From positions 6,666,001-6,730,000 of the forward strand of contig NZ_CP127294.1 in NCBI RefSeq assembly GCF_030285625.1: DNA of 64,000 nucleotides, written 5' to 3'. The position numbers were made by a program, and so were the translations under genes. Positions 875 to 36,889 of the stretch are shown here, in pieces. Each line of letters begins with the position of its first letter. Position 1 is the first letter of the stretch. Origin of the DNA: Amycolatopsis sp. 2-15 (GTDB lineage Bacteria > Actinomycetota > Actinomycetes > Mycobacteriales > Pseudonocardiaceae). Below the pieces are notes generated by a model that saw nothing but the letters and a program-made list of their open reading frames with translations, searched no databases and was not told the DNA's origin.

Positions 875-1702
875 ATGCGGATCATGGTCTCGGCGGACAT
901 GGAGGGCGCCACGGGCGTCACGTGGACCGACGACGTCGTGCCCGGCACCGAGCCCTGGCAGCGGTTCCGGCGGTTGTTCACCGGCGACGTCAACGCGGTG
1001 CTGGCGGGGTTGTTCGAGGCCGGCGCGTCCGACGTCCTGGTGAACGAGGCGCATTCGTCGCAGCGGAACCTGTTGCTGGAGGAGCTCGATCCGCGGGCGC
1101 GGATGCTCACGGGCCGCCACAAGCCGTTGTCGATGATGCAGGGCATCGATTCCGGTGTGGACGGTGTGGTGTTCCTCGGTTACCACGCGGGCGCCGGGTT
1201 CGACGGGGTGCTGTCGCACACGTACCTGGAGAACCAGATCACCGGGGTGTGGCTGGACGACGTGCCCGCGAGCGAGGGCCGGCTCAACGCGGCGCTGGCC
1301 GCGGAGTACGGCGTGCCGGTGCTGCTGGTCAGCGGTGACGACCAGGCGTGCGAAGACGCCCGTGACTACGCTCCGGAGGCGGAGCTGGTGCCGGTGAAGG
1401 AATGTGTGAGCCGGTACGCGGCGATCTGCCTGCCGCCGGCGCGCACGGCGGAGCTGCTGACCGCGGCGGCGCTGGACTCGTGCGTGCGGGCCGGGCAGGT
1501 GGAGCGGCTGCCGGGGCGGCACCGGATCGAGGTGGAGTTCGACGCGAGCCACCTGGCGCAGGCGACGGCGGTGATCCCGACGGTGGAGCAGATCGGCACG
1601 CGCCGCGTGGGGTTCGACGCGCCGAGCATGACCGAGGCGATGAAGGCGTTCAAGGTGGTCACGGCCATCGCGGCGGGGGCGGTGCAGGGTATTTATGGCT
1701 GA
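875..1702 (+). CDS. M55 family D-aminopeptidase (DppA-like)
   Basis: This 275-residue protein begins with MRIMVSADMEGATGVT, the metal-binding N-terminus typical of peptidase family M55 (zinc D-aminopeptidases, best known from Bacillus DppA). The conserved V(N)EAHSSQRN and GYHAGAG segments also match. Length is normal for the family. Members release N-terminal D-amino acids from short peptides, as in the use of cell-wall-derived D-Ala peptides. The last 8 bases overlap the start of the M20 hydrolase, so the two are probably co-translated. A peptide-binding protein gene is divergent on the other side. The protein has no signal peptide and should act in the cytoplasm. D-specificity is a family inference. 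Confidence 0.88.
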   Translation: MRIMVSADMEGATGVTWTDDVVPGTEPWQRFRRLFTGDVNAVLAGLFEAGASDVLVNEAHSSQRNLLLEELDPRARMLTGRHKPLSMMQGIDSGVDGVVFLGYHAGAGFDGVLSHTYLENQITGVWLDDVPASEGRLNAALAAEYGVPVLLVSGDDQACEDARDYAPEAELVPVKECVSRYAAICLPPARTAELLTAAALDSCVRAGQVERLPGRHRIEVEFDASHLAQATAVIPTVEQIGTRRVGFDAPSMTEAMKAFKVVTAIAAGAVQGIYG

Positions 1703-3002
1703 CCTGGCTGATCCCGTCGGGCTGTGTGCCGACTTGATCCGGTTCGACACGACCAACCGCGGTGGCGGGGACTCCGAGGGCGAGCGGGAGGCGGCGGAGT
1801 ACGTCGCGGAATTCCTGGGGCGGCACGGGGTTCCGGCGAAGATCGTGGAGTCGGCGCCGCGGCGGGCGAACGTGATCGCGCGGATCCCGGGTGCCGATCC
1901 GGCGTTGCCGGCGCTGCTGGTGCAGGGGCACCTGGACGTGGTGCCGGCGGACGCGGCGGACTGGTCGGTGCCGCCGTTTTCCGGTGAGGTGCGCGACGGG
2001 TTCCTGTGGGGCCGGGGCGCGGTGGACATGAAGGACTTCTGCGCGATGGTGCTGTCCGCCGTCGCGTCGGGGCTGCGGCCGCGCCGGGATCTGGTGCTGG
2101 CGTTCGTGGCGGACGAGGAGGACAAGGGCGACTTCGGGGCGCATTGGCTCGTCGAGCGGCACCCGGAGCTGTTCGAGGGTTGCGTCGCGGCGATCAGCGA
2201 GTCGGGTGGCTACAGCTACCACGTGCCGGCGGCCGACGGGCGGACCGTGCGGCTGTACCCGGTCGGGACAGCCGAGCGCGGCACCGCGCACCTGAAGCTC
2301 ACGGCGCGCGGCCGGGCGGGGCACGGTTCGCGGCCCAACGACGAGAACGCCGTGACCATGCTCGCCGACGCGTTGCACCGGATCGCCGGGCACCGCTGGC
2401 CGGTGCGGCTGACCCCGACCGTGCGGGCGTTCCTGGACCGCACGGGTGCGGCGTTGGGCGTGCCGGTCGACCTTTCTTCGGGTGCCGCGGTGGACGCGAC
2501 GGTGACGCGGCTGGGTCCGGCGGGTTCGCTGGTCGTGCCGACCGTCCGCAACAGCACCACGCCGACGATGCTGTCCGCCGGCTACAAGGTGAACGTCATC
2601 CCGTCGACCGCGACGGCCCAGGTCGACGTGCGGGTGCTGCCGGACGCGGAGGACGAGCTGTTCGAGGTCTTCGACTCGCTGCTGGGTCCCGGGGTGACGC
2701 GGGAGTTCGTGGCGCACCAGCCGCCCGTGCAGGCGCCGGTGGACTCGCCGTGGTTCGACGCCATGGCCGCCGCGCTGCGTGGTGAGGATCCCGACGCCGT
2801 GGTGGTGCCGTACTGCCTGGGTGGCGGCACGGACGCGAAGGCGTTTTCCAAGCTGGGCATGGCGTGTTACGGCTTCGCTCCCCTGTCGCTGCCCGAAGGT
2901 TTCCCGTACCGCGCGATGGCGCACGGCGTCGACGAGCGGGTGCCGGTGGAAGGGCTGCGGTTCGGGACGCGGGTGCTGAAGCGGTTCCTGGAGTCCTGTT
3001 AG
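1695..3002 (+). CDS. M20/M25/M40 family metallopeptidase (ArgE/DapE-like)
   Basis: The 435-residue product is a di-zinc exopeptidase or deacylase of the M20 family. The metal site appears in order: GHLDVVPAD (His and first Asp), GRGAVDMK (bridging Asp), the catalytic DEED pair in FVADEEDKGD, and a C-terminal GGGTDAKAF with further ligands. A dimerisation insert (RGRAGHGSRPNDENAV) lies in the middle. It starts inside the end of the D-aminopeptidase gene, so the two form a coupled pair probably acting on the same imported peptides. A close paralogue lies at 35567-36889 on the other strand. Substrate cannot be assigned; dipeptides or N-acyl amino acids are typical. Confidence 0.88.
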   Translation: MADLADPVGLCADLIRFDTTNRGGGDSEGEREAAEYVAEFLGRHGVPAKIVESAPRRANVIARIPGADPALPALLVQGHLDVVPADAADWSVPPFSGEVRDGFLWGRGAVDMKDFCAMVLSAVASGLRPRRDLVLAFVADEEDKGDFGAHWLVERHPELFEGCVAAISESGGYSYHVPAADGRTVRLYPVGTAERGTAHLKLTARGRAGHGSRPNDENAVTMLADALHRIAGHRWPVRLTPTVRAFLDRTGAALGVPVDLSSGAAVDATVTRLGPAGSLVVPTVRNSTTPTMLSAGYKVNVIPSTATAQVDVRVLPDAEDELFEVFDSLLGPGVTREFVAHQPPVQAPVDSPWFDAMAAALRGEDPDAVVVPYCLGGGTDAKAFSKLGMACYGFAPLSLPEGFPYRAMAHGVDERVPVEGLRFGTRVLKRFLESC

Positions 3003-3009
3003 CCGCGCC

Positions 3010-4065
3010 CTACCTCCGAGCGGTGCCGGTGACCGGCAGTCGCACCGGGCCGTAGACGATCGCGCGGTCGCGGAAAGCGATCCGGTCCATCGGCACGGTG
3101 GTGCGCAGGTCGGGGAACCGGCGGAAGAGCTCGGGCAGGGCCACGCGCAGCTCAGCGCGGGCCAGCGGCTGGCCGACGCACTGGTGGATCCCGAACCCGA
3201 ACGCGACGTGCTTGCGGGCGTCGCGGGTCCGGTCGAGCACGTCGGGGTCGGGGAAGGCCGTCTCGTCGCGGTTGGCGGACTGCAGCGGGCAGATCACGCC
3301 TTCGCCGGCGCGGATGACGGTGCCGGCGATGTCCAGGTCCTCGGTGGCGACGCGCCGCATCCCGAAGTGGATCACGGCGGTGTAGCGCAGCAGCTCCTCG
3401 ACCGCGCGCGGCACCGCCTCCGGTTCGGTCGCGAGCTTGCGGGCCTGCTCCGGGTCCCGCATCAGGGCCAGGACGCTCATCGTGAGGGTGTTGACCGTCG
3501 TGATTCCCAGCCACACCTGCGGGACGCTGGTGCCGCGCTTGACATACGGGCAGACGACGAAAAGCGGGAAGCTGGCCAGCGCGGCGGGCCACCCGGTGGG
3601 GATGAGCAGTGCCGGCGTGATGACCAGCTGGACGGCGGCGAACACGAGCGCCGCGGCGACGCTGACCTCACCCGAGGGCAGCGGGCGGGATTTGGTGCGC
3701 TCGACCTGGGCGTCGATGTCGCGGTCGACGAGGTCGTTGACCGTGCAGATCGACGCGCGCATCGCGATCGCGGAGAGGCCGAAGAGCACGAGGTCCCCGA
3801 CCAGTGCCCAGCCCTCGAGTGGCGAGAGCGCCAGCGTCCACCTGCCGGGCAGCAGCCAGAGCCAGGTTCCGATCGGGGCCTGGACGCGCATGAGCCGCAG
3901 GTAGGGCCGGATCGGGTCCGGGGCCGCCGCGACGAAGGGTGCCGCGAACCGGCTGTGGAGGAGCCGACGCTCGGGCCGGGTGAGGACGTGGGACACGGGT
4001 GCCGCGCACCTTTCGCCCGAGCCCGGGGGCTCAGGTGGGTTGATCGAGGGGTCTCGCTCGATCAT
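3010..4065 (-). CDS. In-frame chimera: UbiA prenyltransferase N-terminus joined to cytochrome P450 C-terminus
   Basis: One open frame of 351 residues joins two unrelated families. Residues about 50-188 match the N-terminal half of UbiA membrane prenyltransferases: IRPYLRLMR, then the first Asp-rich motif NDLVDRDID at 110-118, SRPLPSGEVS, and a PYVKR...PQVWLGIT segment. From about residue 189 (near base 3501) the sequence becomes a P450: TTVNTL of the I helix, the ExxR pair (E224, R227), and the haem loop FGFGIHQCVG with Cys296. The UbiA half lacks its second Asp-rich motif. The P450 half lacks helices A-H and the acidic residue before the I-helix Thr. Neither half looks catalytically complete. 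It probably arose by deletion between neighbouring ubiA and P450 genes. A GTG at 3996 preceded by GAAAGG is an alternative start. Confidence 0.8.
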   Translation of the reverse strand: MIERDPSINPPEPPGSGERCAAPVSHVLTRPERRLLHSRFAAPFVAAAPDPIRPYLRLMRVQAPIGTWLWLLPGRWTLALSPLEGWALVGDLVLFGLSAIAMRASICTVNDLVDRDIDAQVERTKSRPLPSGEVSVAAALVFAAVQLVITPALLIPTGWPAALASFPLFVVCPYVKRGTSVPQVWLGITTVNTLTMSVLALMRDPEQARKLATEPEAVPRAVEELLRYTAVIHFGMRRVATEDLDIAGTVIRAGEGVICPLQSANRDETAFPDPDVLDRTRDARKHVAFGFGIHQCVGQPLARAELRVALPELFRRFPDLRTTVPMDRIAFRDRAIVYGPVRLPVTGTARR

Positions 4066-4171
4066 GCGTCACGGATGGCCGCGGAATTCACTGTCAGTGC
4101 GTAAGAAGACTCGATTGTGGCGGCTTGATGTACGGAGAGTCACAAAACGAGAGCACAGACGGACCGTAACG

Positions 4172-4510
4172 CTAGGCGCGCCAGGCACCAGGCAGGTTCT
4201 GCGGGTGTGTGCGGTCGAGCTCCCCTTCGAGCACGGCTTGGCGGTGTTCGGCGGCTTCGGCGCTGGGCAGGCCGAGGCGTTCGGCGATGCGTTCCCAGGA
4301 CCAGCCGTGCCGGCGGGCCTGGTTGATGAACTCGGGTTCGGACTGGTCGATGACACGGCGGCTGGTCACGACCTCGCGGCCCCACGCGTCCAGCACGTCT
4401 TCCGGCACTTCGTGGCCGAGCTGGGTCGCCATGAGCAGCGCGGTCAGCACGTCGGCCGGACGCACGCCCGGAACGTGCTCGGTGAACCAGCGTTCGAGGG
4501 TCGGGTTCAT
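4172..4510 (-). CDS. Small conserved-type protein with HTH-like C-terminal half, function unknown
   Basis: The 112-residue product is not a family I can name. The first half (MNPTLERWFTEHVPGVR... ALLMATQLGHEVPEDVLDAWG) looks like a helical domain. The second half contains FINQARRHGWSWERIAERLG followed by SAEAAEHRQ, which reads like a helix-turn-helix of the kind used to recognise DNA. The gene starts one base after the stop of the methyltransferase, giving TGAGATG, so the two are almost certainly co-translated. An upstream AGGCAGG may serve as ribosome site. A DNA-binding or accessory role to the methyltransferase is only an inference. Confidence 0.7.
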   Translation of the reverse strand: MNPTLERWFTEHVPGVRPADVLTALLMATQLGHEVPEDVLDAWGREVVTSRRVIDQSEPEFINQARRHGWSWERIAERLGLPSAEAAEHRQAVLEGELDRTHPQNLPGAWRA

Positions 4511-4511
4511 C

Positions 4512-5183
4512 TCACGCCTGCCTGGTGAAGGTGGCCCACCAGCGGTTGCCGTCGCGGACGCGGTCGACGGAGACCGGTTTGACGCCGTCGCGGGCGAAGG
4601 AGTCGAGTTCGGCGCGGTTGAGCGGCCAGGGCGGGCCGGCCCAGATCGCGAGGTCGATGCTCTCCTCGGCGAACGCGCCGACCACGAGCGTGCCGCCGGG
4701 GGCGAGGAAACCGGCCACGGACTCGATCGCCGCGTCGCGCACGGACTTCGGCATGGACTGCACAGTGAGGATCTCGACGACGACGTCGAAGGCGTGGTGC
4801 CATTCGGCGGGCGGGTCGAGCAGGTCGGCGGTGCGGTAGGAGACGCGCGTGTCGGGGAAGCGGTTGAGCACGGCCTTGATCGCGCTGGGTGAGACGTCGA
4901 AGGCCGAGGTCCGGTAGCCGGAGTCGGCGAGCAGTTCCGCGTCGTCGCCCAAGCCGCAGCCGACGACCAGCGCGCTGCGTCCCTCGCCGGGGTTCGCCGC
5001 CGTCCAGGCCGCGAGCTCGGGACCCGGTTCGCCCCGGTACCACGGCACGACGGCCTGCCCCGCTTCGGCCGCGGCGTAGAGGGGTTCGAACCACCCCGTC
5101 GGGTCGCCTTCGGCCAGCGCGGCCTCGGCACGGCGACGCGCGGCGTCGTCGGCCGCCGCCTGGTCCATCGCTTCAGGGGGCAT
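4512..5183 (-). CDS. Class I SAM-dependent methyltransferase (thiopurine methyltransferase-like)
   Basis: This 223-residue protein has a Rossmann methyltransferase core: motif I LVVGCGLGDDAELLA, motif II TSAFDVSPSAI, an acidic motif at DLLDPP, and FLAPGGTLVV as post-core strand. The N-terminal WFEPLY...VVPWYRGEP and the overall length resemble the TPMT-like group. The start at 5183 is supported by AAGGGGAG six bases upstream; a second in-frame ATG lies five codons later. It heads a two-gene unit with the small protein that follows. The acceptor molecule is unknown. The divergent DUF6924 gene is separated by 145 bases holding a long hairpin. Confidence 0.85.
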   Translation of the reverse strand: MPPEAMDQAAADDAARRRAEAALAEGDPTGWFEPLYAAAEAGQAVVPWYRGEPGPELAAWTAANPGEGRSALVVGCGLGDDAELLADSGYRTSAFDVSPSAIKAVLNRFPDTRVSYRTADLLDPPAEWHHAFDVVVEILTVQSMPKSVRDAAIESVAGFLAPGGTLVVGAFAEESIDLAIWAGPPWPLNRAELDSFARDGVKPVSVDRVRDGNRWWATFTRQA

Positions 5184-5953: not shown

Positions 5954-8900
5954 ATGCCCCGAAGCGCCAGACCCGTCCGCGCCGCGCTGGTCGCGGTCGT
6001 GGCGGCGGCCGGATTGGTCGCCGTGCCGGCGACCTCGACCGCCGAGGCGGACGCCCCTCCGCCGGATTTCTCGTCCTCGTTCGAGCCGTCCGATCCGCAG
6101 CCGACGTGGCAGGACACCGTTGACACCGATGCCGCGGGGCAGCCGCGGACCTCGGGGGTCAACGGCGCGAACGGGGCCACGATCCCGGGTGACATCCGGG
6201 GCAAGGTGACCGAGGCGAGCGCGAGCAGCGAGAACACCGACGGTGGTGAGGTCTCGGCAAACCTGGCCGACGGCGCGACGGACACGAAGTGGCTTTCGTG
6301 GGAGCCCACGGCGTGGGCGCAGCTGACGTTGTCGGAGCCGGTGGCGATCACGCACTACGCGCTCACCTCGGCCAACGACTTCCCCGGCCGTGATCCGCAG
6401 GACTGGACGCTGCAGGGGTCGAACGACGCGCAGCAGTGGACGGACCTGGACAAGCAGTCGGGCCAGTCGTTCGACGCGCGGTTCCAGGAACACCAGTACA
6501 AGCTGGCGGCGCCGAGCGCGGCGTACCGCTACTACCGCCTCGACGTGACCCGCAACCACGGTGACGACATCCTGCAGATGTCGGAGCTGCTGCTGGCCAA
6601 CGACGACGCCCCGCCGCCGCCGTTGCCGAACATGCGCAGCTTCGTCGACTCCGGGCCCACCAGCGGCTACACGAACAAGAACCGCGTGGGCTTCACGGGC
6701 AAGAAGGCGTTCCGCTACGCCGGCACGCAGACCGCGGCCGGGCACGGGTACTCCTACAACAAGGTGTTCGGCGTGAACCTGCCGGTGGTCCCGACCACCG
6801 AGCTGTCCTACAAGGTGCAGCCGCAGCTCACGGGCAACGACCTGAAGTACCCGAGCACGAACGTCGCGATCGACCTGGCGTTCACCGACGGCACGTATCT
6901 GTCGGGGCTGGGGGCGACGGACCAGTACGGGTTCCCGCTCACGCCGCAGGGCCAGGGTGCGAGCAAGATCCTCTACGCGAACCAGTGGAACCTGGTGCGT
7001 TCGGCGGTCGGGACGGTCGCGGCGGGCAAGACGATCGACCGGATCCTCGTGGGCTACGACAACCCGAACGGGCCGGGCGCGTTCCAGGGCTGGCTCGACG
7101 ACGTGAAGATCTCGGCGACCCCGACGCAGCCGGTGAGCCAGCGGCCGAGCGACAACGTGCTGACCACGCGCGGCACGATGGCCAACGGCACGTTCTCGCG
7201 GGGCAACAACTTCCCGGCCACGGCGGTGCCGCACGGGTTCAACTTCTGGACACCGGTCACGGACGCGGGTTCGGACAGCTGGCTGTACAACTACTCGACG
7301 CAGAACAACGCGGACAACCGGCCGCAGCTGCAGGCGTTCTCGGCGAGCCACGAGCCGAGCCCGTGGATGGGTGACCGGCAGAGTTTCCAGGTGATGCCGT
7401 CGGCGGCGGCCGGGGTGCCGGACGCGAACCGCGACGCGCGGGCGCTGGCGTTCTCCCACGACAACGAGGTCGCGCGGGCGCACTACTACGGCGTGACGTT
7501 CGACAACGGGATCAAGGCGGAGATCGCGCCGACCGACCACGCAGCGGTCATGCGGTTCTCCTTCCCGGGCAACGACTCGAGCCTGATCTTCGACAACGTC
7601 AACAACTCCGGCGGGCTCACGCTCGACCCGGCCGCGGGCACGCTGACCGGGTACTCGGACGCGAAGAGCGGGCTGTCGGCGGGTGCGGGGCGGATGTTCG
7701 TCTACGCGAGCTTCGACAAGCCGGTGAGCGCCGGGGCGAAGCTGACCGGCCAGGGCCGCGACAACGTCACGGGCTACCTGCGGTTCGCCGCGGGCGCGGA
7801 CAAGACGGTGACGATGCGGATCGCGACGTCGCTGATCAGCGTGGAGCAGGCGAAGAAGAACCTCGAGCAGGAGATCGCGCCGACGGCCACGTTCGACTCC
7901 GTGCGGGACGCGGCGCAGCAGGCGTGGGACAAGCAGCTGCGGGTGATCGAGGTGCAGGGCGCGTCGAAGGACCAGCTGGAGACGCTGTACTCGAACCTCT
8001 ACCGGCTGTTCCTCTACCCGAACGAGGCGTTCGAGAACACCGGGACGCCGCAGGCCCCGGCCTACAAGTACGCCAGCCCGGTGGCCGCCAAGGCGGGCGC
8101 GGACACCGCGACGCAGACCGGGTCGAAGATCGTCGACGGCCAGATCTACGTCAACAACGGGTTCTGGGACACCTACCGCACCACGTGGCCGGCGTATTCG
8201 CTGCTCACGCCCGACATGGCCGGGAAGATGGTCGACGGGTTCGTGCAGCAGTACCGCGACTCGGGCTGGATCGCGCGCTGGTCCTCCCCCGGTTACGCGG
8301 ACCTGATGACGGGCACGAGCTCCGACGTCGCGTTCGCCGACGCCTACCTCAAGGGCGTGACGAACTTCGACGTGAAGTCGGCCTACGACGCGGCGCTGAA
8401 GAACGCCACGGTGACGCCGCCGAACTCGGCGGTGGGCCGCAAGGGACTCGACCAGTCGATCTTCCTCGGCTACACGCCCAACACCGCCAGCGAGGGCTTC
8501 TCGTGGGCGATCGAGGGCTACGTGAACGACTTCGGCATCGCGAACCTGTCGAAGAAGCTCTACGACGAAGCGCCGGCGAGCGACCCGCGCAAGGCGGAGT
8601 ACCTGGAGAACTACCAGTACTTCACCAGCCGCGCGCAGCAGTACGTGAACCTGTTCGACCCGAGCCTCGGGTTCTTCCAGGGCAAGGACGCGAACGGCAA
8701 GTTCACCAAGACCGCGGCGCAGTACGACCCGCGCGCGTGGGGCGGCGACTACACGGAGACCGACGGCTGGGGCATGGCGTTCACCGTGCCGCAGGACGGC
8801 CAGGGCCTGGCGAACCTCTACGGCGGGAAGGACAAGCTGGCGCAGAAGCTCGACGCGTTCTTCGCCGACCAGGAGACCGCGACGATGACCGGGTCCTACG

Positions 8901-10261
8901 GCACGGTGATCCACGAGATGCGCGAGGCGCGGGACGTGCGGATGGGCCAGTACGGGGGCTCGAACCAGCCGTCGCACCACCTGCTCTACATGTACGACTA
9001 CGCGGGTCAGCCGTCGAAGACGCAGGCCAAGGTGCGTGAGGCGCTCTCGCGGCTGTACTCGGGCAGCGAGCTGGGCCAGGGTTACGCGGGCGACGAGGAC
9101 AACGGCGAGATGTCCGCGTGGTACGTGTTCGGCGCGCTGGGTTTCTACCCGTTGCAGATGGGCAGCCCGGACTACGCGATCGGGTCACCGCTGTTCACCA
9201 AGGCGACGCTGCACCTGCCGGGTGGTGACGTGGTGATCAACGCGCCGAAGAACTCGGCGAAGAACGTCTACGTGCAGGGCCTGAAGATCAACGGCAAGGC
9301 CTGGACGTCGACGTCGCTGCCGCAGGACGTGCTCTCCCACGGGGCGACGCTCGACTTCGACATGGGCCCGAACCCCTCGGCCTGGGGCTCGGGTGCGAAC
9401 GACGCGCCGAAGTCGATCACCACGGGCGACGCGGTGCCGACGCCGCTGCACGACGAGACCGGCGCCGGCAAGGGCACGCTGTCCACTTCGCACGGTTCGA
9501 GCGCGGCGGCGCTGATCGACAACTCCTCGCGCACCGAGGCGAAGGTGACCGGCGCGGTGACGTATCAGCTGAACTCGACGGACGAGGCGGTCACGCACTA
9601 CACGCTGACCTCGCCGAAGGGCGCGGGTGACCCGAAGAGCTGGCAGCTCGAGGGTTCCTACGACGGGAAGACGTGGGCGGTCGCCGACCAGCAGACCGGT
9701 CAGACGTTCCCGTGGCGGCAGCAGACGCGGGCGTTCGCGGTGGCCAATCCGGCGCACTACGCCTACTACCGGCTCACGGTGACCGACAGCACCGGTGGTC
9801 CGGCGTCGCTGGCGGAGTTCGAGCTGCTGGGCCGGCCGGACGCGTCGTGCACGAAGACGTTGACGGGCGCGCAGAAGGGGCCGCTGACGGTGTCGAGCGG
9901 CACGGTGTGCCTCGACGGCGCCACGGTGTCGGGTCCGGTGACCGTGTCCTCCGGCGCGTCGCTGGTGGTGCGGGGCGGGTCGATCTCGGGTCCGCTCGCG
10001 GCGACGGGTGCGGGCCAGGTCGTGCTGAACCGCACGAAGGTGTCGGGCCCGGTGGCGATCACCGGCACGACCGGGTCCGTCTCGGTCGAGCTGACCGACA
10101 TCGGCGGCCCGGCGACCTTCACGGGCAACCACGGGCCGGTGCTGACCAGCAGCACCGTGGGCGGGCCGCTGGCCTGCACGGGCAACACGCCCGCCCCGAC
10201 CGACCACGACCTCGCCAACACCGTCCGCGGCCCGGCCGCCGGGCAGTGCGCGAAGCTGTAG
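5954..10261 (+). CDS. Secreted GH92 family glycoside hydrolase (alpha-mannosidase type) with two F5/8 type C domains
   Basis: A 1435-residue extracellular enzyme. Residues 1 to about 33 form a Sec signal (MPRSARPVRAALVAVV... ATSTAEA). An F5/8 type C (discoidin) domain spans about 85-215, a beta-rich linker domain follows, and the GH92 module runs from about 400 (NFPATAVPHGFNFWTP) to about 1115. Signature segments are NNGFWDTYRTTWPAY near 733, IHEMREARDVRMGQYG near 980, and GDEDNGEMSAWY near 1045; the last two carry the Glu and Asp positions expected for the acid and base of this calcium-dependent inverting family. A second F5/8C domain (about 1160-1290) and a C-terminal tail of glycine- and valine-rich repeats (about 1300-1430) follow. 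It probably trims mannose from external glycans or fungal mannan. Exact linkage is not predictable. Confidence 0.93.
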   Translation: MPRSARPVRAALVAVVAAAGLVAVPATSTAEADAPPPDFSSSFEPSDPQPTWQDTVDTDAAGQPRTSGVNGANGATIPGDIRGKVTEASASSENTDGGEVSANLADGATDTKWLSWEPTAWAQLTLSEPVAITHYALTSANDFPGRDPQDWTLQGSNDAQQWTDLDKQSGQSFDARFQEHQYKLAAPSAAYRYYRLDVTRNHGDDILQMSELLLANDDAPPPPLPNMRSFVDSGPTSGYTNKNRVGFTGKKAFRYAGTQTAAGHGYSYNKVFGVNLPVVPTTELSYKVQPQLTGNDLKYPSTNVAIDLAFTDGTYLSGLGATDQYGFPLTPQGQGASKILYANQWNLVRSAVGTVAAGKTIDRILVGYDNPNGPGAFQGWLDDVKISATPTQPVSQRPSDNVLTTRGTMANGTFSRGNNFPATAVPHGFNFWTPVTDAGSDSWLYNYSTQNNADNRPQLQAFSASHEPSPWMGDRQSFQVMPSAAAGVPDANRDARALAFSHDNEVARAHYYGVTFDNGIKAEIAPTDHAAVMRFSFPGNDSSLIFDNVNNSGGLTLDPAAGTLTGYSDAKSGLSAGAGRMFVYASFDKPVSAGAKLTGQGRDNVTGYLRFAAGADKTVTMRIATSLISVEQAKKNLEQEIAPTATFDSVRDAAQQAWDKQLRVIEVQGASKDQLETLYSNLYRLFLYPNEAFENTGTPQAPAYKYASPVAAKAGADTATQTGSKIVDGQIYVNNGFWDTYRTTWPAYSLLTPDMAGKMVDGFVQQYRDSGWIARWSSPGYADLMTGTSSDVAFADAYLKGVTNFDVKSAYDAALKNATVTPPNSAVGRKGLDQSIFLGYTPNTASEGFSWAIEGYVNDFGIANLSKKLYDEAPASDPRKAEYLENYQYFTSRAQQYVNLFDPSLGFFQGKDANGKFTKTAAQYDPRAWGGDYTETDGWGMAFTVPQDGQGLANLYGGKDKLAQKLDAFFADQETATMTGSYGTVIHEMREARDVRMGQYGGSNQPSHHLLYMYDYAGQPSKTQAKVREALSRLYSGSELGQGYAGDEDNGEMSAWYVFGALGFYPLQMGSPDYAIGSPLFTKATLHLPGGDVVINAPKNSAKNVYVQGLKINGKAWTSTSLPQDVLSHGATLDFDMGPNPSAWGSGANDAPKSITTGDAVPTPLHDETGAGKGTLSTSHGSSAAALIDNSSRTEAKVTGAVTYQLNSTDEAVTHYTLTSPKGAGDPKSWQLEGSYDGKTWAVADQQTGQTFPWRQQTRAFAVANPAHYAYYRLTVTDSTGGPASLAEFELLGRPDASCTKTLTGAQKGPLTVSSGTVCLDGATVSGPVTVSSGASLVVRGGSISGPLAATGAGQVVLNRTKVSGPVAITGTTGSVSVELTDIGGPATFTGNHGPVLTSSTVGGPLACTGNTPAPTDHDLANTVRGPAAGQCAKL

Positions 10262-10277
10262 TCCGGTTCCGGTGCCG

Positions 10278-10311
10278 GTGTGGCCCCGCAGGGTTTCCTG
10301 CGGGGCCACAC
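10278..10311. terminator. Bidirectional 15-bp hairpin terminator
   Basis: GTGTGGCCCCGCAGG (10278-10292) pairs perfectly with CCTGCGGGGCCACAC (10297-10311) around a GTTT loop. It lies between the convergent ends of the GH92 gene and the amidase gene and can serve both. Confidence 0.85.
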
Positions 10312-10350
10312 CCTTACCCGGGTCCGGTCAGCGAGCTCGCCGGTGGGTGA

Positions 10351-11820
10351 TCATGCCGTCGTGCCCGGGCGGCCGCCCTGCTTCGGTGCCCGGAAGCCGC
10401 CGATCCTCGCTTCGAGCAGTTCGGCCAGCCGCAGCGGGGTGCGGTCCTCGAACATCGGGCCGATGAGCTGCACCCCCACCGGCAGGCCCTCCGGAGACGG
10501 GCCCGTGGGGATGGCCGTGGCGGGCAGGCCGGGCATGGTGGCCAGGCCGGCCCAGACGAGCTGGTCGAGGTACGGGTACCGGACGCCGTCGATGTCGATC
10601 CGGCGTTCCAGCAGATCGGGGTTGTGGTCGTGCGGGAACGCGGGAGTCGGCGTGATCGGGCACACCACGGCGTCGAACTCGGCGAAGAACTGCCGCCAGT
10701 GATGGCGGTGGAGTTCGCGCCGGTTGTCCGCCTCGAGCCACTCGCGGTGGGTCGAGGTCAGACCGCGGAGCCGCGCCGCGTCGAGGCTCTGTTCTTCACG
10801 ACGCCGCGTTGCGAGCCGCTGCTCGTACGCCTCGTCCGAAAGCCCGGCCACGGAGCTCGAAACCAGCAGTTGTGTGTAGATCATCGCGGCTTCGGTCAGA
10901 TCAGGCAGCAGGCGGCTGTGCCGTTCGACGCGGGCGCCGCCGTCGACGAACGCGTCGGTCACCCGGTTCAGGCCCGCCCGCACCGCGGACCCGGTCGGGA
11001 TGAGCGGATGCTCGTCGAGGACCAGGACGCGGAAGTCGCCGAGCCGCTCGTGGCGGGCGGGCGGCAGCGTCAAGGTGTGCGCCATACCGAACGTCAGCGG
11101 ATCGGGTCCGGCCATGACGTCGAGCAGGAGCGCCAGGTCGCGGGCGGTGCGCGCCATCGGTCCGACGACGGCGAGGTCGAGGTCGACGGGCAGGGCCGGC
11201 GCGGACGGCGCGACCATGCCGCGGCCGGCCGCCAGTCCGAGAGTCGGCTTGTGTGCGTAGACGCCGCAGAAGTGCGCGGGGGTGCGCAGGGAACCGGCGA
11301 TGTCGGAGCCGATGGACAGTGCGCCGAATCCGGCTGCCAGTGCCGCCGCCGATCCGCCGGAGGAACCACCCGGCGTGCGATCGTGAGCCCACGGGTTGTT
11401 GGTGGTGCCGTGGATTTCGTTGAAGGTTTGCACGTCCCGCAGCCCCAGCGGCACATTGGTCTTTCCGAGCACCACCGCACCGGCGGCCCTGAGCCGCGAC
11501 ACCTGTACCGCGTCCTCGGCCGGCACATGGTCCCGGTGTTGTGGCAGGCCCCAGGTCGTGGGCAGCCCGGCGATGTCGTAGGACTCTTTGACCGTGACCG
11601 GAATTCCGAGCAGGGGCCGGTCCTCGCCGCGGGCCAGTGCCTGGTCGGCGCGGTGCGCGGCGACCCGCGCCCGGTCGAAGTCCGGTACGCAGATCGCGTT
11701 GAGTACCGGGTCGTCCCGTTCGATCCGGGAGATCGCCTCGTCGGTCAGTTCCACCGAGGTGACCTCGCCGGCCCGCAAGGCCGCCGCGAGCTCTTCGGCC
11801 GAGTGAAAAATCCATTCCAT
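10351..11820 (-). CDS. Amidase signature family protein
   Basis: The 489-residue product has the amidase-signature fold. The catalytic Lys is in GIPVTVKES, and the Gly/Ser-rich block TPGGSSGGSAAALAAG supplies the cis-Ser, with the nucleophile Ser in GSDIAGSLRTPA. These enzymes hydrolyse carboxamides; substrate range in this group is wide, and GatA-type function is unlikely because GatB and GatC are absent. I chose the ATG at 11820 (MEWIFHSAEELA) because homologues begin near this helix; the open frame extends 41 codons further upstream. It shares a hairpin terminator with the GH92 gene. There is no signal peptide, so it should be cytoplasmic. Confidence 0.88.
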   Translation of the reverse strand: MEWIFHSAEELAAALRAGEVTSVELTDEAISRIERDDPVLNAICVPDFDRARVAAHRADQALARGEDRPLLGIPVTVKESYDIAGLPTTWGLPQHRDHVPAEDAVQVSRLRAAGAVVLGKTNVPLGLRDVQTFNEIHGTTNNPWAHDRTPGGSSGGSAAALAAGFGALSIGSDIAGSLRTPAHFCGVYAHKPTLGLAAGRGMVAPSAPALPVDLDLAVVGPMARTARDLALLLDVMAGPDPLTFGMAHTLTLPPARHERLGDFRVLVLDEHPLIPTGSAVRAGLNRVTDAFVDGGARVERHSRLLPDLTEAAMIYTQLLVSSSVAGLSDEAYEQRLATRRREEQSLDAARLRGLTSTHREWLEADNRRELHRHHWRQFFAEFDAVVCPITPTPAFPHDHNPDLLERRIDIDGVRYPYLDQLVWAGLATMPGLPATAIPTGPSPEGLPVGVQLIGPMFEDRTPLRLAELLEARIGGFRAPKQGGRPGTTA

Positions 11821-12064
11821 GAAATCCGACCATAGCCGCGCGAAAAGTCCACGAACGGGAAATAGCCCGATGAGCATTGAGACATCCATCCCGTTGCCGG
11901 AAAAGGAATTTCGTGGCCTGCCTTCGCGAAATCGGGTCGCCACAAAATAGCGGGAATGTCAATTCGAATTCCTGATCCGGCGCACTCGAAGACGTCGACC
12001 GGCAATTCGCCGAATCAGTGGTGCCCGGCCACGCCGGGCCGACCCGTGGCGCAGCGACTACCGT

Positions 12065-15000
12065 GTGCGCGTGACCAGGGCCGGGTTCTTCTCATCGTTC
12101 GAGGCGGGTGACCCGCAGCCGGTCGCCTCCGGTGTCCGCGTGGACAGCGGGCCCGACCGGTCCCCCACCGCGAAACCGGGGGTGGGGTTCACCGGCGTGC
12201 GCGCGCTGCGCTACAGCGGAGTGGGGCGGACGGTGCTGTTCGAGACCGACGTCGAGGTCACCGCCCACAGTGCACTGTCCTACGTGGTCTTCCCGGCGTC
12301 GGACGCGGAGGTCCCCTCCTACCGCAGCACGTTCGTCGCGCTGGACGTGGAGTTCGACGACGGCAGCCGTGCCGGCTTCTCGGCCACCGAGCAGGGCCAC
12401 GCGAAGACGCTGCTGGTCGACCAGTGGAACCTCGTGCGCCGGCCGCTGGGCGCGTTCGCCGGGCGGCGGGTCCGGCGGATCGTGCTGCTCACCGACGCGC
12501 CGGGCGAACGCGACGTCAAGGGCTGGCTCGACGACGTGCGCCTCGGCGAGCACCACCCGCGCACCGGTGACCCGGTCGACCACGTGCGCACCACCCGTGG
12601 CTCGCACTCCGGCTTCGGGTTCTCGCGCGGCAACACGTTCCCGGCCACGGCCGTGCCGCACGGGTTCAACTTCTGGACCCCCGTCACCGACGCGCGGTCG
12701 CTGGACTGGTTCTACTCCTACCACCGGCACAACACCGCGGCGAACGAGCCGGCGCTGCAGGCGTTCGCGCTGAGCCACCAGCCGAGCCCATGGATGGGCG
12801 ACCGCCACACCTTCCACCTCATGCCCGGCACCGGTCCCGTCGAGACCGACCGCCGGCGCCGCGCGCTCACCTTCGCCCACGCCGACGAGACCGACCGGCC
12901 ACACCACTATGGCGTGCGGTTCCGCAACGGCGTCACGGCGGAGGTCGCCCCCACCGACCACGCGGCTATGTTCCGCTTCACCTTCCCCGACGGCGCCGGC
13001 TGGGTGGTCTTCGACAACGCCCGCAACCGCGGCGGCCTGCGGGTGCACCCGTCGACCGGAGTCGTCACCGGGCACACGTGGGTGCGCAGCCGCCTGTCCA
13101 CGGGCGCGCGGCGGATGTTCGTCTACGCCCAGGCCGACGTGCCCGCCTCCGGTGGGGGCCGCGGCCCGTTCTGGCGCCGCGTGGCCGGGCACCTGGAGTT
13201 CGCCGCGCCTGAGGTGACGCTGCGGATCGCGACGTCGCTGATCAGCCTCGCGCAGGCACGGCGCAACCTGGAGCTGGAGATCCCCGCCGGCACCACGTTC
13301 GACGAGGTCCGCGACCACGCGCGGGAGAAGTGGCAGGACGTGCTCGGCCGCGTGGAGCTGGAAGGCGCGAGCGAGGACGAGCTAACCACGTTCTACTCCA
13401 ACCTCTACCGGCTCCACCTCTACCCGAACCGCGCGCACGAGAACACACCCGACGGCATCCGCCACGCCAGCCCCGTGGCCCGCGGCCGCGCGTTCAGCAC
13501 CCGCAAGCGCACCGGCGCGAAAATCGTCGACGGCGAGCTGTATGTCAACAACGGCTTCTGGGACACCTACCGCACCACCTGGCCCGCCTACGCGCTGCTC
13601 ACCCCCGAGCGCTGCGGCCGCATGATCGACGGCTTCGTGCAGCAGTACCGCGAAGGCGGCTGGATCGCCCGCTGGTCCTCCCCCGGCTACGCCGACCTCA
13701 TGACCGGCACCAGCTCCGACGTCGCCTTCGCCGACGCCTACCTCAAAGGCGTGCGCAACTTCGACGTCGAGTCCGCCTACGACGCCGCCCTGAAAAACGC
13801 GACCGTCGCCCCGCCGCGCGCCGGCGTCGGCCGCAAAGGCCTCGACACCTCACCGTTCCTCGGCTACACCCCCACCTCGACGAAGGAAGGCCTGTCCTGG
13901 GCGCTGGAAGGCTGCCTCAACGACTTCGGCCTCGCCAACCTCGCCGACGCGCTCGCCCGCGAAAGCGAAGGCCCCCGCGCGCGCCGCCGCGCCGACAACG
14001 CCGCCTACCTGCGCCAGCGCGCCCAGCACTACGTACACCACTTCGACCCGCGCATCGGGTTCTTCCAGGGCCGCACCCCCGACGGCGGCCGCCACTTCCC
14101 GGCACGAGGCTACGACCCCGAAGCGTGGGGCGGCGACTTCGTGGAGACCAACGCGTGGAACACCGCGTTCTCCGTGCCCCACGACGGACCCGGCCTCGCC
14201 GCGCTGCACGGCGGCCCCGCCGGCCTCGAAGCCAAGCTCGACACGTTCTTCACCACCCCCGAAACCGGCCGCAAACCCGGCTCCTACGGCGGCCTCATCC
14301 ACGAAATGACCGAAGCCCGCGACGTGCGAATGGGCCAGTACGGCCACTCCAACCAGCCCTCGCACCACATCCCGTTCGTCTACGCCTTGGCCGGCGCGCC
14401 CGCCAAGCTGCAGCGCACCGTCCGCGAGGTCCTGCGCCGCCTCTACCTCGGCAGCGAGCTCGGCCAGGGTTACCCGGGCGACGAGGACAACGGCGAGATG
14501 TCCGCCTGGTACATCTTCGCGGCGCTCGGCCTGTACCCGCTCACGGTCGGCAGCCCGCGCTACGTGGTATGCGCGCCGCTGTTCCGCCAGGCGACCCTGC
14601 ACCTGGAGAACGGCCACGACCTCGTGATCCGCGCCCCCGGCGCCGCCGGCTCAGGGGACACGGCGGACACGCCCTACGTCCACGGCCTCACCATCGACGG
14701 CCGGCCCCACCACTCGGCGAGCATCTCCCACGCGGTGCTCGCCCGCGGCGCCGTGCTGGAGTTCGACGTGCGCAGCGAACCCGGCACCTGGGGCACCGAA
14801 CCCGTCACACCGAAGCGGCCCGAGCCATTGACCGACCTCGTCGGCACCGCCTACAGCCCCGACGGTCCCGCCGCGCTCCTCGTCGACGACACCAGCAGCA
14901 CCGAAGCCACCTTCACCACCCGCACCCCCGTGGTCGAGTTCTCCGTGCACGGCACCCCCCGCGAAGTCACGATGTACACGCTCACCTCGGGCAGCCGCGA

Positions 15001-15214
15001 CGGCGACCCCACCGCGTGGGTGCTGGAAGGCTCCGCCGACGCCCGCCACTGGACGGTGCTCGACCGCCGCGACGACGAGCTGTTCCGCTGGCGCCGCCAA
15101 ACCCGCCCGTTCGTCCTCGACCGCCCCGCCGCCTGCGAGCACTACCGTCTGCGTGTCACGGCGGCGAACCGCCGCCGCGTCACCCTTGCCCAATGGGAGC
15201 TGCTCGCCCGATGA
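12065..15214 (+). CDS. GH92 family glycoside hydrolase without signal peptide
   Basis: The 1049-residue protein is a second GH92 enzyme clearly related to the one at 5954-10261. It starts directly with the beta-rich domain (FFSSFEAGDPQPV) and has no signal peptide and no N-terminal F5/8C domain. The GH92 module spans about 170-880, with NNGFWDTYRTTWPAY near 494, a shared IHEMTEARDVRMGQYG and GDEDNGEMSAWY near 803. A C-terminal F5/8C-like domain (about 925-1049) completes it. GTG at 12065 or 12071 can start it. The gene overlaps the FUSC-family gene by four bases (ATGA). It may process imported manno-oligosaccharides in the cytoplasm, while its paralogue acts outside. Non-classical export cannot be excluded. 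Confidence 0.9.
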   Translation: MRVTRAGFFSSFEAGDPQPVASGVRVDSGPDRSPTAKPGVGFTGVRALRYSGVGRTVLFETDVEVTAHSALSYVVFPASDAEVPSYRSTFVALDVEFDDGSRAGFSATEQGHAKTLLVDQWNLVRRPLGAFAGRRVRRIVLLTDAPGERDVKGWLDDVRLGEHHPRTGDPVDHVRTTRGSHSGFGFSRGNTFPATAVPHGFNFWTPVTDARSLDWFYSYHRHNTAANEPALQAFALSHQPSPWMGDRHTFHLMPGTGPVETDRRRRALTFAHADETDRPHHYGVRFRNGVTAEVAPTDHAAMFRFTFPDGAGWVVFDNARNRGGLRVHPSTGVVTGHTWVRSRLSTGARRMFVYAQADVPASGGGRGPFWRRVAGHLEFAAPEVTLRIATSLISLAQARRNLELEIPAGTTFDEVRDHAREKWQDVLGRVELEGASEDELTTFYSNLYRLHLYPNRAHENTPDGIRHASPVARGRAFSTRKRTGAKIVDGELYVNNGFWDTYRTTWPAYALLTPERCGRMIDGFVQQYREGGWIARWSSPGYADLMTGTSSDVAFADAYLKGVRNFDVESAYDAALKNATVAPPRAGVGRKGLDTSPFLGYTPTSTKEGLSWALEGCLNDFGLANLADALARESEGPRARRRADNAAYLRQRAQHYVHHFDPRIGFFQGRTPDGGRHFPARGYDPEAWGGDFVETNAWNTAFSVPHDGPGLAALHGGPAGLEAKLDTFFTTPETGRKPGSYGGLIHEMTEARDVRMGQYGHSNQPSHHIPFVYALAGAPAKLQRTVREVLRRLYLGSELGQGYPGDEDNGEMSAWYIFAALGLYPLTVGSPRYVVCAPLFRQATLHLENGHDLVIRAPGAAGSGDTADTPYVHGLTIDGRPHHSASISHAVLARGAVLEFDVRSEPGTWGTEPVTPKRPEPLTDLVGTAYSPDGPAALLVDDTSSTEATFTTRTPVVEFSVHGTPREVTMYTLTSGSRDGDPTAWVLEGSADARHWTVLDRRDDELFRWRRQTRPFVLDRPAACEHYRLRVTAANRRRVTLAQWELLAR

Positions 15215-35566: not shown

Positions 35567-36889
35567 TCAGGACGAACGCACGAACCGGTCCAGCACGCGC
35601 GTGCCGAACTTCAGCGCGTCCACCGGCACGCGCTCGTCCACGCCGTGGAAGAGCGCGGAGAAGTCGAGGTCCGCCGGCAGCTTCAGCGGCGCGAACCCGA
35701 AGTTGCGAATCCCGAGCTGCTGGAACGACTTCGCGTCGGTGCCGCCGGAAAGCATGTACGGCAGCGTGCGCGCGCCTGGGTCCTCGGCGAGCACCGCGGC
35801 GGTCATCGCGTCGACGAGCGCGCCGTCGAACGTGGTCTCCACCGGCGGGAGCTCCATCCACTCCTTCTCGATGTCCGGGCCGAGCAGCTCGTCGAGCTCA
35901 CGGTCGAACGCCTCGATGCGCCCGGGCAGGATGCGGCAGTCGACCGCGGCCTCGGCGACCGACGGGATCACGTTCGACTTGTAGCCGGCGGTGAGCATCG
36001 TCGGGTTCGCGGTGTCGCGCAGCGTCGCGCCGATCATGCGGGAGATGTTGCCCAGCTTGGCGACCGAACCCTCGAGGTCGTCCTCGGGGAAGTCCCAGCC
36101 GGTGATCTCGGTGACGCCGGCGAGGAACTCGCGCACGGAGTCGGTGAGCACCAGCGGAAACCGGTGGTTGCCGAGCTTCGCGACGGCCTCGGCGAGCTTG
36201 GTGACCGCGTTGTCGCGGTGGATCATCGAGCCGTGGCCCGCCGTGCCGCGCACGCGCAGCTTCATCCAGCGGATGCCCTTCTCGGCCGTCTCGATCACGT
36301 ACGCGCGCACGTCGTCCTTCAGCGTGATCGAGAACCCACCGACCTCGCTGATCGCTTCGGTGACGCCCTCGAACAGCTCGGGCCGGTTCTCCACCAGCCA
36401 CTGCGCGCCGTACTTGCCACCGGCCTCCTCGTCGGCGAGGAAGGCGAACACGATGTCGCGCGGGGGCACGATGCCGTGGATCTTGTAGTGGCGGGCCAGG
36501 GCCAGCGTCATGCCGACCATGCCCTTCATGTCCACCGCGCCGCGGCCCCAGACGTAGCCGTCCTGCACGGCGCCGGAGAACGGGTGCACTGACCACTCGG
36601 CCGGGTCGGCGGGCACGACGTCGAGGTGCCCGTGGATCAGCAGGCCCCCGCGCGACGGGTCGGCGCCGGCCAGCCGGACGATGACGTTGTGGCGGTCCTC
36701 ACCACCGGACTCGACGTAGGTGATCTCGTAGCCGGCGTCGGTGAGCTGCTCCGCGACGTACTCGGCGGCGGCGCGTTCGCCGATCAGGGTGTCGGGGTCT
36801 CCGGTGTTGGTGGTGTCGATGCGGATGAGGTCGCTGGTGAGCGTGACGGCCTCGTCAGCGGCGGCGTCGATCGAGTTCGGTTCGGTCAC
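35567..36889 (-). CDS. M20/M25/M40 family metallopeptidase
   Basis: The 440-residue protein has the complete M20 metal site: IHGHLDVVPADPAEWSV, GRGAVDMKGMVGM, AFLADEEAGGKYG, a dimerisation-domain RGTAGHGSMIHRDNAV, and LSGGTDAKSFQQLG near the C-terminus. It resembles the paralogue at 1695-3002 along its whole length, sharing HLDVVPAD, WGRGAVDMK and the HGVDERVPV segment. It is likely a cytoplasmic dipeptidase or acyl-amino-acid hydrolase. It follows a frameshifted GntR gene and precedes a frameshifted hydrolase, both on the same strand. Confidence 0.9.
   Translation of the reverse strand: MTEPNSIDAAADEAVTLTSDLIRIDTTNTGDPDTLIGERAAAEYVAEQLTDAGYEITYVESGGEDRHNVIVRLAGADPSRGGLLIHGHLDVVPADPAEWSVHPFSGAVQDGYVWGRGAVDMKGMVGMTLALARHYKIHGIVPPRDIVFAFLADEEAGGKYGAQWLVENRPELFEGVTEAISEVGGFSITLKDDVRAYVIETAEKGIRWMKLRVRGTAGHGSMIHRDNAVTKLAEAVAKLGNHRFPLVLTDSVREFLAGVTEITGWDFPEDDLEGSVAKLGNISRMIGATLRDTANPTMLTAGYKSNVIPSVAEAAVDCRILPGRIEAFDRELDELLGPDIEKEWMELPPVETTFDGALVDAMTAAVLAEDPGARTLPYMLSGGTDAKSFQQLGIRNFGFAPLKLPADLDFSALFHGVDERVPVDALKFGTRVLDRFVRSS

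Follow-up and report, generated by a model that had tools for sequence, protein, structure and literature searches.

An in-frame ubiA–P450 chimera in Amycolatopsis sp. 2-15, most likely a young pseudogene born by deletion between neighbouring genes

In the 64,000-nucleotide stretch of the Amycolatopsis sp. 2-15 genome analyzed here (called the window), a single reading frame was identified that joins the front half of a UbiA prenyltransferase to the C-terminal part of a cytochrome P450. It is interpreted as a chimera of a ubiA gene and a neighbouring P450 gene born by deletion, and most likely as a young, non-working pseudogene; for this reading a probability of roughly 0.88 is given.

Structure of the Chimeric Reading Frame

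The chimeric frame codes for 351 amino acids and covers positions 3010..4065 of the reverse strand, as delimited by the open frame itself, Pfam and an alignment with its database copy P0001. According to Pfam and alignments, the UbiA-derived part comprises residues 1–188 (3502..4065, reverse strand) and ends at PQVWLGI, while the P450-derived part comprises residues 189–351 (3010..3501, reverse strand) and, as Pfam and a PDB alignment indicate, starts inside helix I with TTVNTL. Pfam places a UbiA domain at residues 85–200 (profile positions 15–134 of 250, 85.8 bits, cut-off 34.2) and a p450 domain at residues 189–317 (profile positions 277–432 of 462, 80.5 bits, cut-off 22.8). The in-frame fusion of the original prediction was therefore confirmed, as the frame is open and both domains lie far above their cut-offs. 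The absence of stops and frameshifts, which the prediction had also put forward, holds as an observation, but it is weak evidence by itself because only 63 of the 3159 one-step changes in the frame (2.0%) create a stop.

The Pfam match of the UbiA domain overruns the switch at residues 188/189 by 12 residues. The switch is clearest against the intact genes of Streptomyces corallincola J2-1 described below, where residues 3–165 of P0001 correspond to ubiA and residues 167–323 to the P450 (P0001 numbering is that of the fusion minus 23). Most of the P450 matches in the own genome begin at fusion residue 189, and the PDB matches to the chimera start at residues 177–193 (best 60 of 438). P0001 has a length of 328 amino acids, as it begins at fusion residue 24 with a GTG at position 3996, vs. 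the ATG at position 4065. Upstream of this GTG a GAAAGG stretch is located, which we read as a putative ribosome site.

By comparison with J2-1, the deletion junction was placed at 3496..3507 (reverse strand), where Gly187 and Ile188 of the UbiA part are joined to Thr189 and Thr190 of the P450 part; its sequence is CTGGGAATCACGACGGTCAACACC. The ACGACG within it forms the codons of Thr189-Thr190, which align with the threonine pair of the P450 I-helix, a pair that comes after an acid residue in P450 enzymes. Since they encode this pair, the ACG repeats need no special explanation, and the earlier suggestion that they are the microhomology behind the deletion was not upheld. Microhomology was sought in J2-1, which here takes the place of the ancestor: the longest word common to its two breakpoint neighbourhoods is CAACAC with 6 bp, and 205 of 500 random pairs of places in the same two genes also share at least 6 bp, so that nothing beyond chance was found at the breakpoints of this stand-in.

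Retained and Missing Parts

UbiA enzymes use two Asp-rich motifs. The fusion shares with the UbiA-type 4-hydroxybenzoate prenyltransferases (TIGR01474/PF01040), represented by the J2-1 protein P0002, the N-terminal half with the first Asp-rich motif (NDxxDxxxD), which aligns as NDLVDRDID, and the sequence SRPLPSG. In contrast to P0002 and the other intact UbiA proteins of the alignment, it lacks the second motif (YDTIYxHQDxxDD) together with the C-terminal half, which is lost from about residue 157 of the 297 residues of P0002. In line with this, the fusion reaches 130.8 bits with the 4-hydroxybenzoate prenyltransferase model TIGR01474 and stays below the cut-off of 275.45, whereas the intact P0002 lies above it with 282.6 bits.

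With the bacterial cytochromes P450 (PF00067), represented by the J2-1 protein P0121, the fusion has in common the C-terminal ~160 residues, including the ExxR motif as EELLR and the cysteine haem-ligand loop (FGxGxHxCxG) as FGFGIHQCVG. By sequence, the P450 fold is incomplete: homology starts at Thr189, and the N-terminal helices are absent, as is the acid residue that precedes the conserved threonine of helix I. Compared with P0121, residues 1 to ~237 of 396 are lost. The best-scoring solved P450 chain among the best 60 of 438 PDB matches is pentalenic acid synthase (4ubs), in which fusion residue 189 corresponds to position 236 of 393, so that everything before mid-helix I has no counterpart in the fusion. 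Both these helices and the I-helix acid residue have established roles in P450 enzymes.

The statement that each half lacks essential parts of its family was thus borne out for the UbiA part, which is without the second Asp-rich motif, as well as for the P450 part, which is without residues 1 to ~237. Judged from these losses, the fusion product is most likely inactive, and a residual function seems unlikely. Together with the P450 relic found in the sister genome G094 (see below), the missing catalytic parts point to a non-functional remnant.

The Intact Gene Pair in Streptomyces corallincola J2-1

Both parts of the chimera were searched separately in protein databases. The best match of the UbiA part is P0002, with 63% identity over 82% of the part (own protein excluded; best 120 of 297), and the best match of the P450 part is P0121, with 68% identity over 96% (best 120 of 4901). 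Both proteins are encoded on one contig of S. corallincola J2-1 with a length of 250,260 bp. At this locus (L076), the ubiA gene (10001–10894) and the P450 gene (10938–12128) lie on the forward strand, in the same order as in the fusion and 43 bp apart. The fusion keeps the equivalent of the UbiA protein to about residue 156 of 297 and of the P450 from about residue 238 of 396. The J2-1 span between the codons matching the junction (L076 10466–11651) amounts to 1,186 bp, plus or minus a few bases depending on the choice of codons.

As the best relatives of both parts form an intact, adjacent pair of the same order, there is strong support, from a genome at 63–68% identity, for the proposed deletion between a ubiA gene and a P450 gene next to it. 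Intact neighbours, which the prediction suggested looking for in close relatives, occur in another genus, but no intact ubiA–P450 pair was found in the genomes searched from the own genus.

Trees of the two parts, built from 44 and 45 sequences from the top of the match lists, agree with this picture. The UbiA part groups with P0002 and P0003 (support of 97 for the split and 98 for the inner pair) and the P450 part with P0121 and P0122 (100 for both), where P0003 and P0122 have the same source but do not necessarily belong to one genome. The topology is the same in both trees, and the two halves share their history.

In J2-1 the pair adjoins Prim-Pol and D5_N primase-like genes (L076 6548–9414), as in mobile elements, and may be the cargo of such an element. 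A carrier of the pair among phages or plasmids was looked for and rejected. A phage collection searched with P0002 yielded five records, at 32% identity and named Salmonella or Acinetobacter; none of the 1269 records matched in a plasmid collection covers 80% of the fusion; and of the 10 pattern matches to P0121 in a scan of viral contigs none is a relative.

Eight further loci with a relative of P0002 were examined, namely the family matches L201–L205 as well as L077, L089, and L090, of which L089 and L202 look like one record. In three of the eight (L203, L204, and L205) a P450 gene is located directly upstream of ubiA on the same strand, its product being 34–37% identical to P0121; the remaining five gave no P0121 relative. 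L203–L205 may be benzastatin-like clusters, as suggested by L203, the sole one of the three that was profiled, which holds genes of the PabAB-like, AurF-like, carbamoyltransferase, and methyltransferase families as well as additional P450 genes around the pair. Based on the match of P0002 to the 4-hydroxybenzoate prenyltransferase model, which it passes, and on surroundings of the L203 type, prenylation of a benzoate ring followed by oxidation by the P450 would be a reasonable guess for the J2-1 pair.

Occurrence in Other Genomes

A second two-domain protein of UbiA and P450 was found neither among the best 120 of 297 matches to the UbiA part nor among the best 120 of 4901 matches to the P450 part. 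The whole protein was searched in 60 genomes (59 and the own one), and the only full match among those listed is the window itself, while none of the matches listed in the 59 other genomes extends across both parts. The own genome has 40 matches to the fusion, most of them over the P450 part, and holds five other places of the UbiA family; apart from the window's own place, none of its listed matches reaches past residue 157 of the UbiA part together with the P450 part. No mention of a UbiA–P450 fusion was found in the literature titles and opening parts of abstracts listed.

The UbiA part alone was also compared with 80 genomes of the genus (79 and the own one). The best other match has an E-value of 1.9e-16 and 39% identity, and no match of more than 43% identity is among those listed, the own genome excluded. 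Relatives of P0002 were screened at an E-value of 1e-45 with a first pass that keeps up to six candidates per genome; at this threshold they are present in 11 of 390 genomes of the family, own genome included, and in 1 of 394 genomes of the class, which is the own genome. The UbiA type of P0002 is, by these searches, uncommon in the actinomycetes covered.

The Insertion Site and Its Relic in a Sister Genome

The chimera lies in a lineage-specific insert (3003..4171), recognized by the aligned flanks in relatives, between two conserved neighbours. On one side an M20 peptidase gene (1695..3002, forward strand; Pfam, genus search) serves as synteny anchor, with a match at an E-value of 1e-60 in 80 of 80 genomes of the genus, own included. 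On the other side, a gene for a small protein without Pfam match is located (4172..4528, reverse strand; Pfam, synteny). In two relatives the site is empty, the aligned flanks being 92 bp apart in G009 and 12 bp in G034. Of 30 loci fetched around the best M20 matches, one is the own locus, 28 show no trace of the insert within the ~1.5 kb downstream that they span, from which a remoter remnant would escape, and one (L157, in G094) holds a relic. A search with the DNA of the insert, in which few candidates were scored per genome, gave matches in all 80 genomes. Outside the own genome, those listed are 67–78% identical and all inside the P450 part, as expected if they are ordinary P450 paralogues.

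The M20 gene of G094, the nearest relative found, is 97% identical to that of the window, the highest value among the genomes searched. An alignment shows that the 3′ end of the P450 (3003..3137, reverse strand) has a degraded counterpart in this genome, which is divided into two pieces. The first follows directly after the M20 gene, aligns with window positions 3003–3079 and translates to AFRDHAIAHNPLRLPVN..., the P450 C-terminus. The second aligns with positions 3085–3137 and lies 6,258 bp away from the first, beside the other flank. Together they represent the last ~42 codons of the P450; the equivalent of about 3138–4163 is missing from G094, and no part of ubiA or of the fusion junction was found at this locus. 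As the relic sits at the same spot, the P450 3′ end was in place before the two lineages split. Its degradation in G094 indicates that the P450 was dispensable. With neither the junction nor ubiA in G094, an intact pair and a fusion in the shared ancestor would both be compatible with the data.

The two pieces differ in their divergence. In the first, 18 of 67 sites differ from the window (27%; 6, 5, and 7 by codon position), in the second 4 of 53 (8%; 0, 2, and 2). Between the M20 genes of the window and G094, compared over 432 codons, 10 first, 2 second, and 45 third codon positions differ, as do 34 of 277 fourfold sites (12.3%), so that the first piece is more and the second less divergent than the fourfold sites. 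Within the limits of these small numbers, the P450 3′ end seems to have drifted free of coding constraint in one or both lineages.

The insertion of 6.26 kb which splits the relic in G094 (L186, about 8837–15093) contains frames that, by eye, resemble a transposase, two MFS transporters, and LysR and TetR regulators. In G090 (L189), the spot behind the M20 gene (window 2998–4172) is occupied by a stretch 84% identical to window positions 10374–11829. This suggests that the site behind the M20 gene is insertion-prone and varies between species. A second M20-like gene is present in the window itself (35567–36889, reverse strand); its protein is ~52% identical to that of the first one, and its DNA matches the first-M20 region of relatives at about 66%.

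Sequence Decay of the Chimeric Frame

The GC content at third codon positions (GC3) is 0.915 and 0.963 in the two parts of the chimera and 0.897–0.965 in four neighbouring genes. Compared with J2-1, differences at the first, second, and third codon positions amount to 42, 27, and 76 over 153 codons in the UbiA part and to 36, 31, and 56 over 157 codons in the P450 part, a pattern like that between the intact UbiA genes of AcH505 and J2-1 (92, 65, and 148 over 279 codons). At sites with at least 90% conservation, the UbiA part has 14 departures among 56, more than any other of the 120 sequences, vs. 11 of 56 in the intact J2-1 protein; with the threshold raised to 95% this difference disappears (6 of 42 vs. 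6 of 43). The P450 part departs at 5 of 63 such 90% sites, its intact J2-1 counterpart at 10 of 66.

The branch of the UbiA part, which carries a gap of three residues, has a length of 0.587 vs. 0.311 for J2-1, and that of the P450 part 0.330 vs. 0.353, without acceleration. Relative-rate tests with P0004, P0005, P0006, P0009, and P0016 as outgroups gave chi2 values of 0.18–2.91, none of them significant. The values of 14.2 and 16.0 obtained when P0003 or, in the case of the P450 part, P0122 served as outgroup were discarded as invalid, both being sisters of J2-1. The C-terminal LPVTW of nearly all relatives listed is replaced by LPVTGTARR in the fusion.

Strong decay of the frame is thus not borne out by conserved-site departures, relative rates, or codon positions. 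Much of the divergence from J2-1 is probably older than the fusion, and for this reason these figures fit a recent pseudogene as well as a gene under constraint. Normal GC3 without significant decay would indicate that the deletion is probably recent or that the frame is weakly constrained.

Proposed Origin and Alternative Explanations

From these observations we infer the following course of events. The ancestor shared with G094 would have carried an acquired insert between the M20 gene and its neighbour, which contained the P450 at the very least and presumably the whole ubiA–P450 pair. In the intact pair, as far as the two families allow to predict, UbiA would transfer a prenyl chain onto a ring of the 4-hydroxybenzoate type, with subsequent oxidation of the product by the P450. 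In the lineage of the window, one deletion of ~1.2 kb would then have taken out the rear half of ubiA, the short intergenic gap and the first 60% of the P450 gene, joining the remaining ends in frame. The chimeric product, which lacks catalytic sections of UbiA as well as of the P450, would most likely be inactive and the frame a young chimeric pseudogene, while the insert would have decayed further in the lineage of G094. Chimeric pseudogenes that arise when a deletion fuses two adjacent genes are a known kind, and no essential difference separates the present case from them: two same-strand neighbours would have lost the sequence between their outer ends and been joined in frame.

Instead, the chimera could be a domesticated new gene, whose membrane protein is made, partly folded, and has taken over a new role, e.g., in anchoring or haem binding. 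An open frame with normal GC3, largely kept conserved residues, and a plausible start preceded by GAAAGG would fit such a gene, but the fusion occurs in one genome only among the matches listed, the corresponding P450 stretch of G094 is interrupted, and a P450 part beginning in mid-helix I is combined with a UbiA part lacking the second Asp-rich motif, so that domestication appears unlikely. A chimera that is expressed and maintained by selection, with UbiA helices and a P450 haem-ligand loop as a new architecture from one deletion, is considered very unlikely. The membrane-anchored haem-loop protein of the original prediction would presuppose that the product is made and folds.

The existence of the intact arrangement in another genus also raises the question whether the true genome contains an intact ubiA–P450 pair of which 1.2 kb were dropped in the assembly. 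However, the genome is a single contig of 10,050,063 bp, the breakpoints in the J2-1 stand-in show no long repeat that an assembler could collapse, and with the retained UbiA part as query no other place in the genome is more than 40% identical to it; such an error is considered highly improbable. Even less credible is a conserved family of modular UbiA–P450 fusions with the chimera as a member. At L203, L204, and L205, three loci from the same family, UbiA and P450 genes are adjacent too, but there the genes are separate with the P450 first, their P450s reach the above 34–37% identity to P0121, and another two-domain protein is not among the matches listed.

Implications

Under the preferred reading, a remnant fused by deletion, an acquired gene pair has decayed in an ordinary way. 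It provides a decay series of an acquired biosynthetic pair, which is intact in Streptomyces, reduced to a fused frame in Amycolatopsis sp. 2-15, scattered in pieces in G094, and absent at the empty sites of other relatives. For genome annotation it is a warning that a frame with two high-scoring Pfam domains does not necessarily encode a working fusion enzyme. If the product were nevertheless made and useful, it would represent a new domain combination born by a single deletion.
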